Part shown: positions 44,998-51,111 of the stretch, piece by piece
Layout: the number at the start of each line of letters is the position of its first letter
How positions within the stretch are numbered: the stretch's first letter is position 1
Source of the DNA: Membranihabitans marinus
GTDB taxonomy: Bacteria; Bacteroidota; Bacteroidia; Chitinophagales; Saprospiraceae
Length of the DNA: 51,111 nt
Direction of reading: 5' to 3'
NCBI RefSeq assembly: GCF_021729155.1
Contig: NZ_JAJQYA010000038.1
Coordinates: forward strand, 1-51,111
The notes under the pieces: generated by a model
Told to the model about the DNA's origin: nothing
Database searches by the model: none
Seen by the model: only the letters and a program-made list of their open reading frames with translations
Position numbers and translations under genes: made by a program

Positions 44998-45085
44998 AAT
45001 AAAAATGCCCCGAAATATAAGACGAGGCGACTTAAATGTTTTCACAACGGAATAATCCTTATTGTGAATTGCTTAAAGATTTGTA
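44998..45085 (-). ncRNA. tracrRNA of the type II-C CRISPR system
   Basis: The plus-strand segment 45061-45085 is the reverse complement of the 5' part of the CRISPR repeat, so the minus-strand RNA starts with an anti-repeat: UACAAAUCU pairs 9 bp and AAGCAAUUCACAAU pairs 14 bp (one G-U), separated by a 2-nt bulge. It continues into an AAGGAUUAUUCC segment and UUGUGAA, and ends in GCCTCG-N10-CGGGGC (45007-45028) with an AT-rich U tract (44992-45006), a convincing terminator. A consensus promoter precedes it (45089-45119). The RNA is about 88 nt and is transcribed away from cas9. Confidence 0.85.
45007..45028 (-). terminator. tracrRNA terminator hairpin
   Basis: Minus strand GCCTCG / CGGGGC (6 bp with one T-G pair) followed by ATTTTTATTTTG. 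In other Cas9 systems this 3' hairpin also contacts the protein. Confidence 0.7.
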
Positions 45086-45088
45086 AGC

Positions 45089-45119
45089 CAAATATATGAA
45101 TTTATAATTAAAGAATCAA
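45089..45119 (-). promoter_or_regulatory. tracrRNA promoter
   Basis: Minus strand TTG (45117-45119), 20 nt, TATATTTG (45089-45096). The start is predicted near 45083-45085, exactly where the anti-repeat begins. The TTG ends 2 nt before the cas9 ATG on the other strand. Confidence 0.75.
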
Positions 45120-45121
45120 TA

Positions 45122-48100
45122 ATGGGGAAGAAAATTTTGGGTTTAGATTTAGGTACCACTTCTATTGGATGGGCTCTGGTTGAAGAAGCCGATAGAGAAG
45201 GTGAAAATTCAAGAATAATAAAATTAGGAGTAAGGGTAAATCCTTTGAGTGCAGATGAACAAAGTGATTTTGAAAAAGGGAATCCTTTGTCATTAAATGC
45301 TGATCGCACACTTAAACGAGGGGCCCGCAGAAATCTTCAACGATTCAAGTTACGAAGAAAAAACCTCATAGAAGTAATGGCAAATGCAGGTTGGATAGAC
45401 TCTAACTTTCATTGGGCAGAAACGGGGAAGAACACCACATTTGAGAGTTTAAAAATAAGAGCTAAGGCCGCATCTGAAAAAGTAAGTCTAGAAGAATTGG
45501 CTAGAGTCCTACTATCTATTAATAAAAAGCGTGGCTACAAGAGTAGCCGTAAAGCCAAAAACGAAGAGGAGGGAAGTCTAATCGATGGAATGGCTGTAGC
45601 TAAGGAAATGTATGAAAATAATCTTTTGCCTGGACAATATGTTTATAACCAATTAAAGTCTGGAAAACAATATATCCCTGATTTTTATAGATCCGATTTA
45701 CAACGTGAATTGGATGCAGTCTGGGAATTTCAAAAGGAATTTCATCCAAATATTCTCACTGATGAATTTAGAATGGCTATTGCTGGTAAGGGGCAGAAAG
45801 CTACGGCAGCTATGTGGTGGCATCAATATCAATTTAATACAGCAGAGAATAAGGTAGGATCTCGTGAAGATAAAAAGTTGCAAGCTTATAAGTGGCGGAA
45901 TGATGCTTTACATATGGCTTTAACAAGAGAGGAGGTGGCCTATGTCATTACAGAGATAAATCATAACCTTAATAGTTCTAGTGGTTATCTTGGGGCAATA
46001 AGTGATAGGAGTAAAATATTGTATTTTAACGATTTAACTTTTGGACAGTATTTATATCAACAAGTATGTGAGGATTCTCATACTCGATTAAAAGGTCAAG
46101 TTTTCTATCGGCAGGATTATCTCGATGAATTTGAAAAAATATGGTCAACCCAACAAAAGTACTATCCTCAATTAAATGAGGATTTGAAATCGGAAATTCG
46201 AGATGTAGTCATTTTTTATCAACGTCGGTTAAAATCTCAGAAAGGTTTGATTGGTTTATGTGAATTTGAACAAAAGACGATTACTATTACAAAAGATGGA
46301 AAAGAGAAAAAGAAAATTATCGGCCCAAGAGCTATTCCAAAATCATCACCGCTGTTTCAAGAATTTAAAATAAGACAACAAATCAATCTGCTGGAATTAA
46401 GGAATAATACTACAGGGGAGAAGTATAAACTAAATGCAAGCGAAAGAGAAGCTTTGTTTGAAGAATTGTTTTTGAGGGGGAATATGAAGAAATCTCAATT
46501 ATTTAAATTCTTTAATTGGAAAGAGAAGGATTGGACAATAAATATAAAATCTGACATAGAGGGCAATCGAAGCAATCAAGCTCTCTTCAATGTATATCAA
46601 GCGATTGCTGAAATGGAGGGATATGGTTTTGATTGGGCGAAGAAAAAAACCTCAGAGATTTTGGAGGAATTAAAAGCTGTTTTTCCTGTGATTGGTATTG
46701 ATCCTTCTGTATTAGATTATGACTCTAGTTTAGAAACAAAAGAATATCAAAAACAGAAAAGTTTTCAACTATGGCATTTGTTATATTCTGCAGAAGATGA
46801 TATGGGAAAGATCGCAGTTGAGGATGTTGAAAAATATGGACAATCCAGTGTGGCATTAAAGAAAGTATTACATCAAAAATTTGGATTTAAGATTGACCAT
46901 ACTCACTTGTTGGCTCAAGTGGTTTTTCAAAATGATTATGGTAATTTGAGTTCTAAAGCTATTCGGAAAATTTTGCCTGGTCTTAAGCAGGGGTTGTTGT
47001 ATTCCGATGCTTCAAAATTAGCTGGTTATAATCATTCTAATTCTTTGAATAAAGAGGAAAGAGCGCAACGAGTATTATCTGATTATCTTGAAATATTGCC
47101 TAAGAATAGTTTGCGTAATCCAGTAGTGGAAAAAATACTGAATCAAATGGTAAACTTGGTCAATCAAGTCATTGATACTTATGGGAAACCAGACGAAGTA
47201 AGGATAGAATTGGCTCGTGAATTGAAAAAATCAGCGAAAGAGCGATCTGAAATGACAAAAAATATCAATGCGGCTAAAAGGCTGCATGAAGATTATGTCA
47301 AAACCCTACGTAAACCTCCCTTTAATATAGCCAATCCTACACGGGGCGATATAATAAAGTATAAGCTTTATTTGGAATTGAGTGGTTTGAGATATTATAC
47401 TATATACACCAATAAACACATTGAACCTGAGATGTTGTATAGCAAGGACGTGGAAATAGAGCACATCATTCCTCAATCTCGATTATTTGATGATTCATTT
47501 GCCAATAAAACCTTGGCCTTTAGTAAAATTAATCGAGAGAAAGGTAATATGACAGCTTTAGATTATATCGAAAAAATTAAGACTCAAAACTTAGATGGCT
47601 ATTTGTCCAGGGTGGAATTGCTCTACAGTCTTCAAAAAATTAGTCGAACTAAATATCGCAAATTGATTATGAGACAGGAAGACATTCCGAAAGATTTTAT
47701 TGAAAGGGATTTGAGAAATAGCCAATACATAGCAAAGAAAGCCAAAGAAATGTTGGAGGAAGTAATAGACACTGTGAATACTTCTACTGGCAAAATAACG
47801 AGTTTGTTGAGAGAAGATTGGAATCTGATCAATGTAATGAAGGAATTAAATCTACCAAAATACCGCGCTGCAGGTCGAACTTCAATGGAGGAGAGAAAAT
47901 ATGGTCAAAAAGTAGAAAAAATCGAGGATTGGACGAAACGCAACGATCATAGACATCATGCATTAGATGCTTTAACCGTGGCATTTACGACATACAACCA
48001 TGTGCAATATATTAACAATTTAAATGCTGACTCTAATAGGGATCATAGTTTTGAGGGTAAAAAAAATATAATCACAAAAAATTATGTAAATGGTAAGGGG

Positions 48101-49267
48101 CATCAAAAACGGAAGTTTATTCCTCCGATGGAAAATTTTAGACAAGAAGCCAAACGCCATTTAGAAGGTGTCCTAGTATCTTTTAAAACTAAGAATAAGG
48201 TGGTAACACGTAATTTTAACAGGGTGAAAGGATGCGAGGAAGACCAGCTGACGCTTACCCCACGGGGGCAATTGCATAAAGAAACAATCTACGGACGTAA
48301 GTTGCGACCTGTGGTCAAGGAAGAGAAAATAGGGACTAAGTGGGATATGGAAAAAATTTCGCAAGTAACCAATCCGGTTTATCGAAATGCTTTAGAACGA
48401 TGTTTATTTGAAAATGATGAGAATCCCAAGAAAGCTTTTGGTGGTAAAAACTCACCAACAAAAAAACCAATAGTTACGGAGAATAATGAAGTCATACCTG
48501 AAAAAGTGAAGACGGTTAGTATGGAAACCTATTATACGATTCGAAAGGAAGTGGCACCCGATTTGAAAATAGATAAGGTGGTAGATGATAAGATTAAAAA
48601 ATTGTTGAATGATCACTTAGCCACTTGTAATAACGATGCCAAATTAGCTTTTGGAGATCTAGAGAAGAACCCCATTTGGCAGAATAAAGAAAAAGGTATT
48701 GCTATTAAACGAGTAACGATTACTGGAGTTAAGGAAGTTGAATCATTGCATCAGAAAAAAGATCATTTGGGTCAATTGATCTTAGATGAAGATCAGCGAC
48801 CACAGCCAGTAGATTTTGTGAGTACAGGCAACAATCACCATGTAGCCATCTACAGAGATGATAAAGGAAAACTCCAGGAGAAGGTGGTTTCATTGTATGA
48901 GGCTGTAGCTCGAGTAAATGAGGGATTACCTGTCGTTGACCGGGATTGGAAGGCAGATGAAGGTTGGGAGTTTTTATTTACATTGAAGCAAAACGAGATG
49001 TTTCTTTTTCCCACGGAGGAGTTTGATCCCCACGAAGTGGATTTATTTGATCCTCAAAACTATGGATTGATAAGTCCACATTTATTTCGAGTTCAGAAGA
49101 TAACTAGTAAGGATTATTTTTTTAGGCATCATTTAGAAACTAATGTTGAAACTATAAAAGAATTACATTGGAAAACTTGGATTAGAACAGGATTAGTCAA
49201 TATTGGCAATATTATTAAAATTAGAACAAACCATTTAGGAGATATCGTTCAAATCGGGGAATATTGA
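45122..49267 (+). CDS. cas9: Cas9 RNA-guided endonuclease, type II-C
   Basis: A 1381-aa effector nuclease. RuvC-I has Asp9 in GLDLGTTSIGWAL; the Arg-rich bridge helix follows (RTLKRGARRNLQRFKLRRKN, about residues 62-81); a large alpha-helical recognition lobe spans about 85-680; RuvC-II has Glu696 in VRIELAREL; HNH has His781 in EIEHIIPQ and Asn795 in FANKTL; RuvC-III has His946 and Asp949 in HRHHALDA; the C-terminal PAM-interacting region follows. Every catalytic residue is present, so it should cut both strands. Length and gene set (cas9-cas1-cas2 without csn2 or cas4) place it in the long II-C group seen in Bacteroidota. cas1 starts one base after its stop. PAM cannot be predicted here. 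Confidence 0.97.
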   Translation: MGKKILGLDLGTTSIGWALVEEADREGENSRIIKLGVRVNPLSADEQSDFEKGNPLSLNADRTLKRGARRNLQRFKLRRKNLIEVMANAGWIDSNFHWAETGKNTTFESLKIRAKAASEKVSLEELARVLLSINKKRGYKSSRKAKNEEEGSLIDGMAVAKEMYENNLLPGQYVYNQLKSGKQYIPDFYRSDLQRELDAVWEFQKEFHPNILTDEFRMAIAGKGQKATAAMWWHQYQFNTAENKVGSREDKKLQAYKWRNDALHMALTREEVAYVITEINHNLNSSSGYLGAISDRSKILYFNDLTFGQYLYQQVCEDSHTRLKGQVFYRQDYLDEFEKIWSTQQKYYPQLNEDLKSEIRDVVIFYQRRLKSQKGLIGLCEFEQKTITITKDGKEKKKIIGPRAIPKSSPLFQEFKIRQQINLLELRNNTTGEKYKLNASEREALFEELFLRGNMKKSQLFKFFNWKEKDWTINIKSDIEGNRSNQALFNVYQAIAEMEGYGFDWAKKKTSEILEELKAVFPVIGIDPSVLDYDSSLETKEYQKQKSFQLWHLLYSAEDDMGKIAVEDVEKYGQSSVALKKVLHQKFGFKIDHTHLLAQVVFQNDYGNLSSKAIRKILPGLKQGLLYSDASKLAGYNHSNSLNKEERAQRVLSDYLEILPKNSLRNPVVEKILNQMVNLVNQVIDTYGKPDEVRIELARELKKSAKERSEMTKNINAAKRLHEDYVKTLRKPPFNIANPTRGDIIKYKLYLELSGLRYYTIYTNKHIEPEMLYSKDVEIEHIIPQSRLFDDSFANKTLAFSKINREKGNMTALDYIEKIKTQNLDGYLSRVELLYSLQKISRTKYRKLIMRQEDIPKDFIERDLRNSQYIAKKAKEMLEEVIDTVNTSTGKITSLLREDWNLINVMKELNLPKYRAAGRTSMEERKYGQKVEKIEDWTKRNDHRHHALDALTVAFTTYNHVQYINNLNADSNRDHSFEGKKNIITKNYVNGKGHQKRKFIPPMENFRQEAKRHLEGVLVSFKTKNKVVTRNFNRVKGCEEDQLTLTPRGQLHKETIYGRKLRPVVKEEKIGTKWDMEKISQVTNPVYRNALERCLFENDENPKKAFGGKNSPTKKPIVTENNEVIPEKVKTVSMETYYTIRKEVAPDLKIDKVVDDKIKKLLNDHLATCNNDAKLAFGDLEKNPIWQNKEKGIAIKRVTITGVKEVESLHQKKDHLGQLILDEDQRPQPVDFVSTGNNHHVAIYRDDKGKLQEKVVSLYEAVARVNEGLPVVDRDWKADEGWEFLFTLKQNEMFLFPTEEFDPHEVDLFDPQNYGLISPHLFRVQKITSKDYFFRHHLETNVETIKELHWKTWIRTGLVNIGNIIKIRTNHLGDIVQIGEY

Positions 49268-49268
49268 T

Positions 49269-50168
49269 ATGATAAAGCGCACCATATTTTTTGGGAATCC
49301 CGTCTATTTGCGGACTGAGCAACAGCAGATGGTCGTAGATTATAAAGATTCAAAAAAGAAGGCCGCAAGACTGCCTATTGAAGATATAGGCATTATCGTA
49401 TTAGAACATCCACAGATTACTTTGACCCATGGACTGATGCAGCGATTAACAGCGCAAAAGGTAGTGTTGATTACTTGTGATCAGCGCCATATGCCTTGTG
49501 GTTTGATGCTCGCGGTGGAAGGACATAGTGAACAGAGTCAGCGTTTACAAATTCAGGTTGAAGTCAGTAAGCCACTCAAGAAACAGTTGTGGCAGCAGAC
49601 GGTGAGGACGAAGATTCGGAATCAAGGCTTGGTGCTAGAAAGATTAGGCAAAGATGGTCGAACATTGGAGTATTGGTCTAAGCAAGTACAGAGCGGTGAT
49701 GCGAAAAACCACGAAGCATTTGCAGCGGCTCATTATTGGCAGCATTTGTTTGGTATAGATGAATTTCAACGAGACCGTGATGGTCTTCCTCCTAATAATT
49801 TGCTAAATTATGGGTATGCGATTTTAAGGGCGATTGCGGCTCGATCTTTGGTAGCTACTGGTCTACACCCTGGTTTAGGTATTTTTCATAAAAATAAATA
49901 CAATGCTTATTGTTTGGCGGACGACATTATGGAGCCTTATCGGCCCATGGTGGATCGCTTGGTCACCGAATTAGTGGATGAAATTGGGTATAATTTTATT
50001 TTGGATACTGGTATAAAGCGGCAGCTGTTACAAATCCCTATGATGGATGTGTTGATAGATGGAAAGCGTAGTCCACTAATGAACGCCATGTTGCGCACCT
50101 GTCATTCTCTTTATCGATGTTATGAAGGGAAGAAACGAAAAATCCTTTATCCCAGCCTTTATGACTAA
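49269..50168 (+). CDS. cas1: CRISPR integrase Cas1, type II
   Basis: A 299-aa subunit of the Cas1-Cas2 complex that inserts new spacers. The N-terminal beta domain ([23 protein letters not shown]) is followed by the helical catalytic domain: metal-binding Glu in [15 protein letters not shown] (about residue 150), [28 protein letters not shown] with the catalytic His (about 205), and Asp in [10 protein letters not shown] (about 220). All are present, so spacer acquisition is plausible. It is one base after cas9 and overlaps cas2 by 8 nt (ATGACTAA). Confidence 0.96.
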
Positions 50169-50502
50169 ATTCCAGAGAATAGGACAATATAGAATTATGT
50201 GGGTTTTTGTATTTTTTGATTTGCCGACGGAGACCAAGCGAGAACGCAGTGTTGCTAATAAGTTTAGGAAAAAATTAATGGCTGATGGTTTTACGATGTT
50301 TCAATTTAGTATTTATTTACGCTGTTGTCCTTCCATTGAAAATGCTAAAGTCCATGTAGAGCGGACGAAGAAAAACCTACCTTCTAATGGCTATGTAGGT
50401 ATTTTGACCGTGACGGATAAACAGTTTGGTAATATGGAATTGTTTTTTGGTAAAAGGGCTACAGCAGTTGAAAATCCTCCTCAGCAGCTAGAAATGTTTT
50501 AA
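50161..50502 (+). CDS. cas2: CRISPR-associated protein Cas2
   Basis: A 113-aa ferredoxin-fold partner of Cas1. After [12 protein letters not shown] comes [17 protein letters not shown] with the family's first-strand Asp; [12 protein letters not shown] is the second conserved block. The ATG at 50161 overlaps the cas1 stop in the usual coupled manner; an in-frame ATG at 50122 would add 13 residues encoded inside cas1 and is less likely. The CRISPR array starts 70 nt downstream. Confidence 0.95.
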
Positions 50503-50531
50503 AATTATGTTGGAATTTAATTTCTAGAACA

Positions 50532-50589
50532 AGATGTTAATTCGCAGTAGATCAATGACTTACATTGGTTCTGCTGCGAATCAGCATCT
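50532..50589. repeat. Degenerate inverted copy of the repeat end, cas2-proximal flank
   Basis: AGATGTTAATTCGCAG (50532-50547) is the reverse complement, with two differences, of CTGCGAATCAGCATCT (50574-50589) inside the first repeat. The 26 nt between them are close to a spacer in length. Read on the crRNA strand, the last repeat and this flank could form a long hairpin at the end of the transcript. Confidence 0.6.
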
Positions 50590-51111
50590 AAAAATACAAA
50601 TCTGAAAGCAATTCACAACGTGCTGGCATGGATTCTATTGCCTTCAATCGCTGCGAATCAGCATCTAAAAATACAAATCTGAAAGCAATTCACAACTTAT
50701 AATCTTGACGGCAATCAAAGGCAACGGCTGCGAATCAGCATCTAAAAATACAAATCTGAAAGCAATTCACAACCGGTTCTCATAGCTTCCTATAATCTTG
50801 CAAGCTGCGAATCAGCATCTAAAAATACAAATCTGAAAGCAATTCACAACACATATTTAATTGCCGCCAGCAATACAGCTGCTGCGAATCAGCATCTAAA
50901 AATACAAATCTGAAAGCAATTCACAACCCCATGCAATGGATTAAGAATGTAAAAAAAGCTGCGAATCAGCATCTAAAAATACAAATCTGAAAGCAATTCA
51001 CAACATGGACGATGCTTGTTGTATTCCATCTTCAGCTGCGAATCAGCATCTAAAAATACAAATCTGAAAGCAATTCACAACGTCCGTGAAATTAGAACCA
51101 AAGTCTACATT
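50573..51111 (-). CRISPR. Type II-C CRISPR array, at least 7 repeats, continues past the window
   Basis: Seven identical 47-bp repeats at 50573-50619, 50650-50696, 50727-50773, 50804-50850, 50881-50927, 50958-51004 and 51035-51081, separated by spacers of exactly 30 bp; the window ends after the seventh spacer-length segment. On the minus strand the repeat begins GTTGTGAATTGCTTTCAG and ends GATGCTGATTCGCAGC; this is the crRNA strand, because its 5' part pairs with the tracrRNA. A small GCTG/CAGC hairpin closes the repeat's 3' end. No spacer matches elsewhere in the window by eye. Lack of repeat decay suggests either recent activity or that the decayed end lies outside the window. Confidence 0.98.

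Follow-up and report, generated by a model that had tools for sequence, protein, structure and literature searches.

How the spacers of the CRISPR array at the end of this contig are transcribed is the question raised by its locus: from one promoter at an end of the array, or from promoters within the repeats, as the initial annotation proposed from the letters of the repeat. The window, a 51,111-nt stretch of Membranihabitans marinus DNA, carries cas9, cas1 and cas2 as one operon, with TIGR01865, TIGR03639 and TIGR01573 all matched above their cut-offs (Table 1). We found no csn2 or cas4 in the operon, no other open reading frame of at least 80 aa between cas9 and the array, and no cas family match for the two neighbours upstream of the operon; the far side of the array was read as sequence only. 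With type II cas9, cas1 and cas2, an anti-repeat near cas9 and neither csn2 nor cas4, the locus is a type II-C CRISPR-Cas system. The repeats recur with a period of 77 bp and, by analogy with Riemerella, new spacers enter at the leader side (PMC6008519). The tracrRNA anti-repeat fixes the orientation, and the crRNA strand is therefore the minus strand, on which the repeat reads GTTGTGAATTGCTTTCAGATTTGTATTTTTAGATGCTGATTCGCAGC. The match of the window repeats to the Rfam family CRISPR-DR50 (RF01363) falls below the gathering score and is on the opposite strand, which suggests that the family model was built from the non-crRNA strand. An inverted repeat, ATTCGCAG ... CTGCGAAT (50540-50581), spans the leader and the end of the leader-proximal repeat and could make a hairpin at the 3' end of an array transcript.

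The array runs on past the contig end. The only other place in the assembly that carries the window repeat is contig C24. It opens with one complete repeat, followed by a spacer and a degenerate repeat; another degenerate copy lies further along. Given the identical repeat, the start of C24 is probably the other end of the array. The flanking DNA beside the second degenerate copy occurs again at about 246-310, a pattern that would fit a tandem duplication of the terminal unit.

Table 1. Features of the type II-C locus and of the promoter-like elements in the window.
Feature	Position	Strand	Remarks
Presumed tracrRNA body and terminator-like hairpin	to ~44990	-	by eye
tracrRNA anti-repeat	45062..45085	-	pairs with repeat positions 2-25, mismatches at 15-16
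Predicted tracrRNA promoter, TTG-N20-TATATTTG	45089..45119	-	full consensus; predicted +1 at 45084
cas9 (type II, 1381 aa)	45122..49267	+	TIGR01865, 496.6 bits
cas1 (type II)	49269..50168	+	TIGR03639, 298.4 bits; also Cas1_II
cas2	50122..50502	+	TIGR01573, 66.1 bits; also Cas2_II; start codon uncertain; overlaps cas1
Leader, 70 bp	50503..50572	.	between cas2 and the first repeat
Seven identical 47-bp CRISPR repeats with 30-bp spacers	50573..51081	-	minus is the crRNA strand
3' tail of repeat 1, TGATTCGCAGC	50573..50583	-	inverted-repeat arm with the repeat head
-7 box TATTTTTA, repeat 1	50589..50596	-	predicted +1 ~12 nt after box start, e.g. 50584
TATTTTTA box, other repeats	50666-50673, 50743-50750, 50820-50827, 50897-50904, 50974-50981, 51051-51058	-	
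TTG (-33-like), repeat 1	50616..50618	-	also within the tracrRNA-pairing region
TTG, other repeats	50693-50695, 50770-50772, 50847-50849, 50924-50926, 51001-51003, 51078-51080	-	

On the crRNA strand all seven repeats read TTG-N19-TATTTTTA, with TTG at repeat positions 2-4 and TATTTTTA at 24-31, so that the letters and the spacing of exactly 19 nt first noted for the repeat are correct in every copy. The window repeat thus has a TTG at one of the two favoured spacings (N19/20) and lacks the full Bacteroidota consensus TAnnTTTG, from which TATTTTTA departs at one base (last G to A); because of this mismatch we call the element promoter-like. A start inside the 3' part of the repeat had been predicted at positions 37-39. 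If the box occupies -12 to -5, the placement mapped in Flavobacterium psychrophilum (PMC9723704), the predicted start moves to about position 36. The pattern TTG-N19-TAnnTTTA has seven matches in the 51-kb window against 1.3 expected, all in the seven repeats; since one sequence has been copied seven times, these count as one event. When positions 16-47 of the repeat were shuffled with dinucleotides preserved, 58% of the shuffles held a box within one mismatch, 18% held it together with a TTG at N18-20 and 12% with one at N19/20. By itself the box of the window repeat is not significant and chance is not excluded. Because any significance has to come from the repeat family, we turned to relatives.

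Three Cas9-guided searches of 395, 396 and 395 partly overlapping genomes, with cut-offs of 1e-3, 1e-100 and 1e-25, matched 66, 43 and 73 genomes, respectively. Not every match was taken: we scanned 140 sources (139 stretches and the window), and 99 of them gave an array of the II-C kind. A second search of named genomes with a Cas9 alignment returned 80 loci, 54 with an array of the same kind; a scan of named genomes with the window Cas9 alone as the query gave no match. Arrays were accepted on the first 16 nt of the repeat, and the box was not used. The final set holds 135 distinct repeats, 111 of 45-50 nt (long repeats) and 24 of 36 nt, and excludes L242 for its uncertain boundary.

The box is conserved in long Bacteroidota II-C repeats: TAnnTTTG with at most one mismatch occurs after position 16 in 104 of the 111, against 42.1 +/- 5.4 in 300 shuffles (maximum 56), and is perfect in 39 (shuffles 3.7, maximum 10). 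On the opposite strand of the same repeats only 14 come within one mismatch and none is perfect. The host housekeeping consensus therefore lies on the crRNA strand of these repeats, the window repeat being within one mismatch of it. The excess is weaker among the 36-nt repeats, 14 of which have the box (shuffles 5.1, maximum 12). Type I-C repeats served as a control and gave the box in 0 of 13 distinct repeats, a weak control because they are GC-rich; for this reason the shuffles and the permuted motifs carry the argument. A gapped 6-mer search of 48 repeats without a preset motif ranked GTAnCTT, GTATCnT and GTATCT at the top.

Relatedness among the repeats could also produce such counts. We considered that the box might be a relic of common descent and AT-rich composition, functionless in arrays served by an outside promoter of another type. 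The repeats are related, about 38% of the long ones would have a one-mismatch box by composition alone, and 7 of the 111 long and 10 of the 24 36-nt repeats manage with no box within one mismatch. The box nevertheless holds in non-redundant sets made by greedy selection: it is present within one mismatch in 20 of 23 repeats at 60% identity (shuffles 8.5 +/- 2.0, maximum 13), in 15 of 16 at 55% (shuffle maximum 11) and in 11 of 13 at 50% (shuffle maximum 10). At each of these levels TAnnTTTG ranks first among its 30 letter permutations, with another permutation equalling it in perfect matches at 50%. Single linkage at 65% puts 105 of the 135 repeats in one group; with one random repeat per cluster, 6 of 10 have the box within one mismatch (shuffles 2.2, maximum 6). 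The long repeats of this set are very coarse material (n=5): four are within one mismatch and none is perfect, permuted motifs do match perfectly, and ATnnTTTG outranks TAnnTTTG by perfect matches. The rest of the 3' half varies, with no letter above 57% in the box-aligned columns +8 to +17, which speaks against common descent. We consider a relic unlikely.

The initial annotation had named, as the outcome that would speak against it, TTG and TAnnTTT varying freely among relatives while the anti-repeat pairing is conserved. The box does not behave in this way, yet its position slides, with starts from 17 to 33 among the long repeats. Of the 104 boxes, 87 start at 23-28 and 73 at 23-26; four start at 17-18, and three of these tie with a box at 25-26.

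The TTG half of the promoter claim is weak. TTG at 2-4 is present in 109 of the 111 long repeats, and this invariance is no evidence by itself because the TTG lies inside the tracrRNA-pairing region. A TTG at N18-20 before the box was found in 76 of the 111 (shuffles 11.7, maximum 23). The boxes at 23-26 use the TTG at 2-4, and eleven boxes starting at 30-33 fit a second TTG at 9-11, which is present in 90 of the 111 repeats. In 14 repeats the best box has a TTG only at N22-23 or N15-16, a poor fit, and two long repeats have none in N15-25. One sub-group (L060, L065, L070, L090, L092, L093, L096, L250, L251, L256 and L276) carries TAGCTTAG/TAACTTAG at 26-28, which places its TTG 2-4 at N21-23; this may be a lineage-specific box.

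Pairing with the tracrRNA could in principle conserve the box as well. Of 99 loci searched with an anchored match, 78 had an anti-repeat copy. Over positions 14-22, to which the match was anchored, repeat and anti-repeat agree in 86-99%, and beyond them agreement falls to 74% at 23, 60% at 24, 54% at 25 and 40-59% over 26-36; a few of the 78 matches are stray full repeats (e.g. L067, L077 and L087), which inflate the agreement past position 23. Because the box usually starts at 23-28, where agreement falls, most of it lies outside the pairing, and by these figures most of the box is not kept by tracrRNA pairing. In some box-less 36-nt repeats the similarity to the copy near cas9 covers most of the repeat, and box-less repeats of this length (L112, L116, L118, L120, L123 and others) sit beside smaller Cas9s.

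The tracrRNA itself has a predicted promoter of the same kind, which served as a positive control; in the window it occupies the space from the anti-repeat to the start codon of cas9, on the strand opposite to cas9. A full TAnnTTTG stands upstream of the tracrRNA in 51 of 121 regions from relatives, compared with 11 on the opposite strand, and a TTG at N18-20 accompanies it in 26 of 34 spacings counted. Measured from the end of the box, the base pairing with position 22 lies 4-7 nt further on in 39 of 54 cases, most commonly 5 nt (18 of 54). With the -12 to -5 placement from F. psychrophilum, the tracrRNA would start where the pairing begins. A tracrRNA promoter with the full box means that the same loci use this grammar and spacing for the partner RNA. 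By eye, the sequences upstream of the tracrRNA look to run into the cas9 start in several relatives.

We then examined this grammar in the genome itself, using 68 regions upstream of genes drawn from the window and from five stretches of 20 kb. TAnnTTTG occurs 27 times in the forward and 7 times in the reverse orientation (30 permutations, median 10), and N19 is the commonest spacing of nearby TTGs, being exact in 5 of 9. TAnnTTTA, the form found in the window repeat, shows no such enrichment, with 20 forward and 24 reverse occurrences in these regions. It is thus conceivable that the box is real in the phylum and TATTTTTA weak or dead here, the array being expressed mostly by read-through or by another sigma factor, the more so as the organism's own tracrRNA promoter has the full TATATTTG. 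However, the eighth base is also A in 23% of the boxes in repeats and in 11 of the 58 counted before tracrRNAs, with no significant link between the two (5/16 versus 6/42, P 0.16), and both degenerate copies at the far end of the array keep the box unchanged. We regard a weak or dead box in this organism as a real but rather small possibility. TAnnTTTA may be a tolerated or tuned-down form, and the activity of the exact TATTTTTA box would be the weakest link in a promoter reading drawn from sequence.

If the arrays depended on a promoter outside the repeats, it might be visible at their flanks, which we searched for the consensus box TAnnTTTG alone among promoter types. Among 85 arrays whose upstream flank was long enough, the full box occurs within 200 nt upstream in 14 in the forward and in 11 in the reverse orientation, hence without excess; at the far end in this genome there is no full box within 200 nt. 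On the leader side of 111 arrays a full box points into the array in one case and away from it in eight. That consensus promoters are not in excess at either flank is a further point against a relic.

The oldest repeat offers another view of what is retained. Oldest-repeat decay is general in CRISPR arrays and in type II-C falls mostly in the first 15 nt, which limits what its pattern can say for a promoter, and a need for this repeat to keep promoter function has already been suggested (PMC12080349). Its pairing half is dispensable because no spacer lies upstream of it. We scored decay by suffix matching; a recognisable truncated copy was absent in 42 of 85 arrays. Among 31 truncated oldest repeats with a box in the consensus, 27 break before the box, four within it and none after it (61% expected with uniform breakpoints, P only 0.0017), and the box is as good as in the consensus in 26. 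With a less strict threshold, passed by chance at 7 of 425 control places, 30 breaks fall before, six inside and two after the box. No TTG at N16-23 is found in 28 of 38 truncated oldest repeats, which counts against a complete promoter with both elements. Both degenerate copies in this genome (L279) keep the box: the one at 375-421 differs at positions 1-4, 6, 8 and 12, and the one at 107-153 differs at 12, with positions 1-8 reading N.

These data also bear on the idea that the box is a motif of the Cas1-Cas2 integrase, a ruler anchor for repeat duplication that only resembles a promoter. The box sits in the middle of the repeat, flanked by the two inverted-repeat arms, and integrases of other CRISPR types rely on motifs within the repeat. 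A start that slides from 17 to 33 is incompatible with a fixed ruler, though, and the letters of the box are those of a sigma box that also stands before the tracrRNA, where no integration happens. The leader-distal repeat, which is not an integration site, mostly keeps it too. An integrase motif appears distinctly improbable to us.

The promoter had further been offered as the reason for the 47-bp repeat length, an explanation that fails because the 36-nt repeats with a box carry it at 21-26. Since most long repeats have it at similar positions, their extra 10-11 nt lie 3' of the box, and we ruled out the promoter as the cause of the length. The predicted start falls 1-4 nt before the spacer in 13 of the 14 boxed 36-nt repeats and 8-13 nt before it in 89 of the 104 boxed long repeats. 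The additional 10-11 nt of the long repeats are complementary to the head of the repeat and make up an inverted-repeat arm. In 49 repeats own tails scored 14.94, compared with 14.07 +/- 0.22 for swapped tails (maximum 14.68 of 500). Complementarity beyond that of swapped tails indicates that the long repeats are imperfect palindromes with the box in the loop.

The window repeat folds with -12 kcal/mol, a stability reached by 8 of 200 shuffles (z -2.0), and many repeats read CTTTCAAA...TTTGA, as would be expected if the conserved stretch were an RNA processing or folding element in which TCAAA (15-19) forms a hairpin with the TTTGA of the box. The stable stem, however, is that of head with tail and leaves the box mostly in the loop. 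Boxes ending in A or standing behind CATTT cannot form the TCAAA/TTTGA stem, and we saw no compensating change. On inspection of the repeats alone we rejected this hairpin as the reason why the stretch is conserved, and consider an RNA element very improbable indeed.

Because the box is phylum-wide, lies mostly outside the pairing and has no counterpart in excess at the flanks, an internal promoter is the best reading. We think it likely that type II-C repeats each carry a Bacteroidota housekeeping promoter with the box TAnnTTTG that would transcribe the next spacer. Of the proposal of an internal promoter in Bacteroidota grammar, the box is well borne out, being conserved, mostly unpaired and without flank excess, and the TTG half is weak. 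The housekeeping sigma factor would recognise the -7 box (TATTTTTA here), with the TTG at 2-4 available as a -33 element, and RNA polymerase would start about 12 nt after the box start, near repeat position 36. The transcript would begin with the final ~11 nt of that repeat, run through the spacer that follows and continue into the head of the repeat beyond it; that head would pair with the tracrRNA. The array would then consist of successive transcription units of one spacer each, all read toward the cas2/leader end, and no outside promoter would be needed. Judging by the repeats, each spacer probably has a small promoter to itself for its transcription, instead of sharing one at the array end.

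We lean, by a modest degree, towards a broader proposal: that Bacteroidota Cas9 arrays re-created the one-promoter-per-repeat design with a composite repeat, whose head pairs with the tracrRNA, whose loop holds a sigma box and whose tail is an inverted-repeat arm. At the front of each transcript this tail could fold back over the spacer onto the following repeat's head, so that initiation and crRNA maturation may be coupled.

If internal promoters of this kind are used, crRNA supply in a large bacterial phylum would be independent of a leader promoter, and old and new spacers should be expressed about equally. Any array fragment would be self-sufficient, including arrays split by insertion elements, as described for a strain of F. 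psychrophilum (PMC10309648). The repeat-internal promoter would be a general type II-C solution, built from whatever host promoter grammar exists, which would argue for convergent selection. The reading gives an exact, testable start position, and it bears on published readings that see only a TTG, or no promoter, in such repeats.

A promoter inside the repeat is an accepted feature of II-C arrays (PMC8092290, PMC12080349, PMC5006608), and the idea is not new to flavobacterial systems: in the II-C arrays of F. columnare and F. psychrophilum a repeat promoter was proposed from the TTG alone, 33-35 bp upstream of each spacer (PMC8092290, PMC10309648). Transcription toward the leader is indicated there by eight array reads in F. 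columnare and by RNA-seq coverage in F. psychrophilum (PMC8092290, PMC10309648). The passages of these papers that treat the array name no -7 box in the repeat and contain no start-site mapping or comparative test, and those of PMC10309648 cite TAnnTTTG for the cas9 gene only. The F. columnare repeats are 36 bp long (PMC8092290), those of the window 47 bp. Riemerella anatipestifer II-C has 47-bp repeats and the same gene order as the window (PMC5006608), and its repeat (L224) reads TTG-N20-TATCTTTG, a full consensus match. In the relevant passages its authors report no promoter in the repeat and predict leader promoters with a general predictor, BDGP (PMC5006608). We found no TAnnTTTG described inside a CRISPR repeat in the open-licence literature, which was covered mostly as passages and listings. 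The paper with the 5'-end data of F. psychrophilum (PMC9723704) has no mention of CRISPR in its main text.

The known decay of the first 15 nt of the extra II-C repeat (Feussner 2025, PMC12080349) differs from our result in that here the retained part is tied to a specific box; the main text of that paper contains none of 'Bacteroid', 'Flavobacter' and 'TAnnTTTG'. In Neisseria and Campylobacter II-C arrays a promoter is described in every repeat, with the motif TAAAT (PMC8092290), in place of the Bacteroidota sigma -7 box seen here; the predicted start in most of the long repeats, 8-13 nt before the spacer, is a further difference. The Bacteroidota repeat box is best read as the counterpart of the Neisseria/Campylobacter repeat-promoter design.
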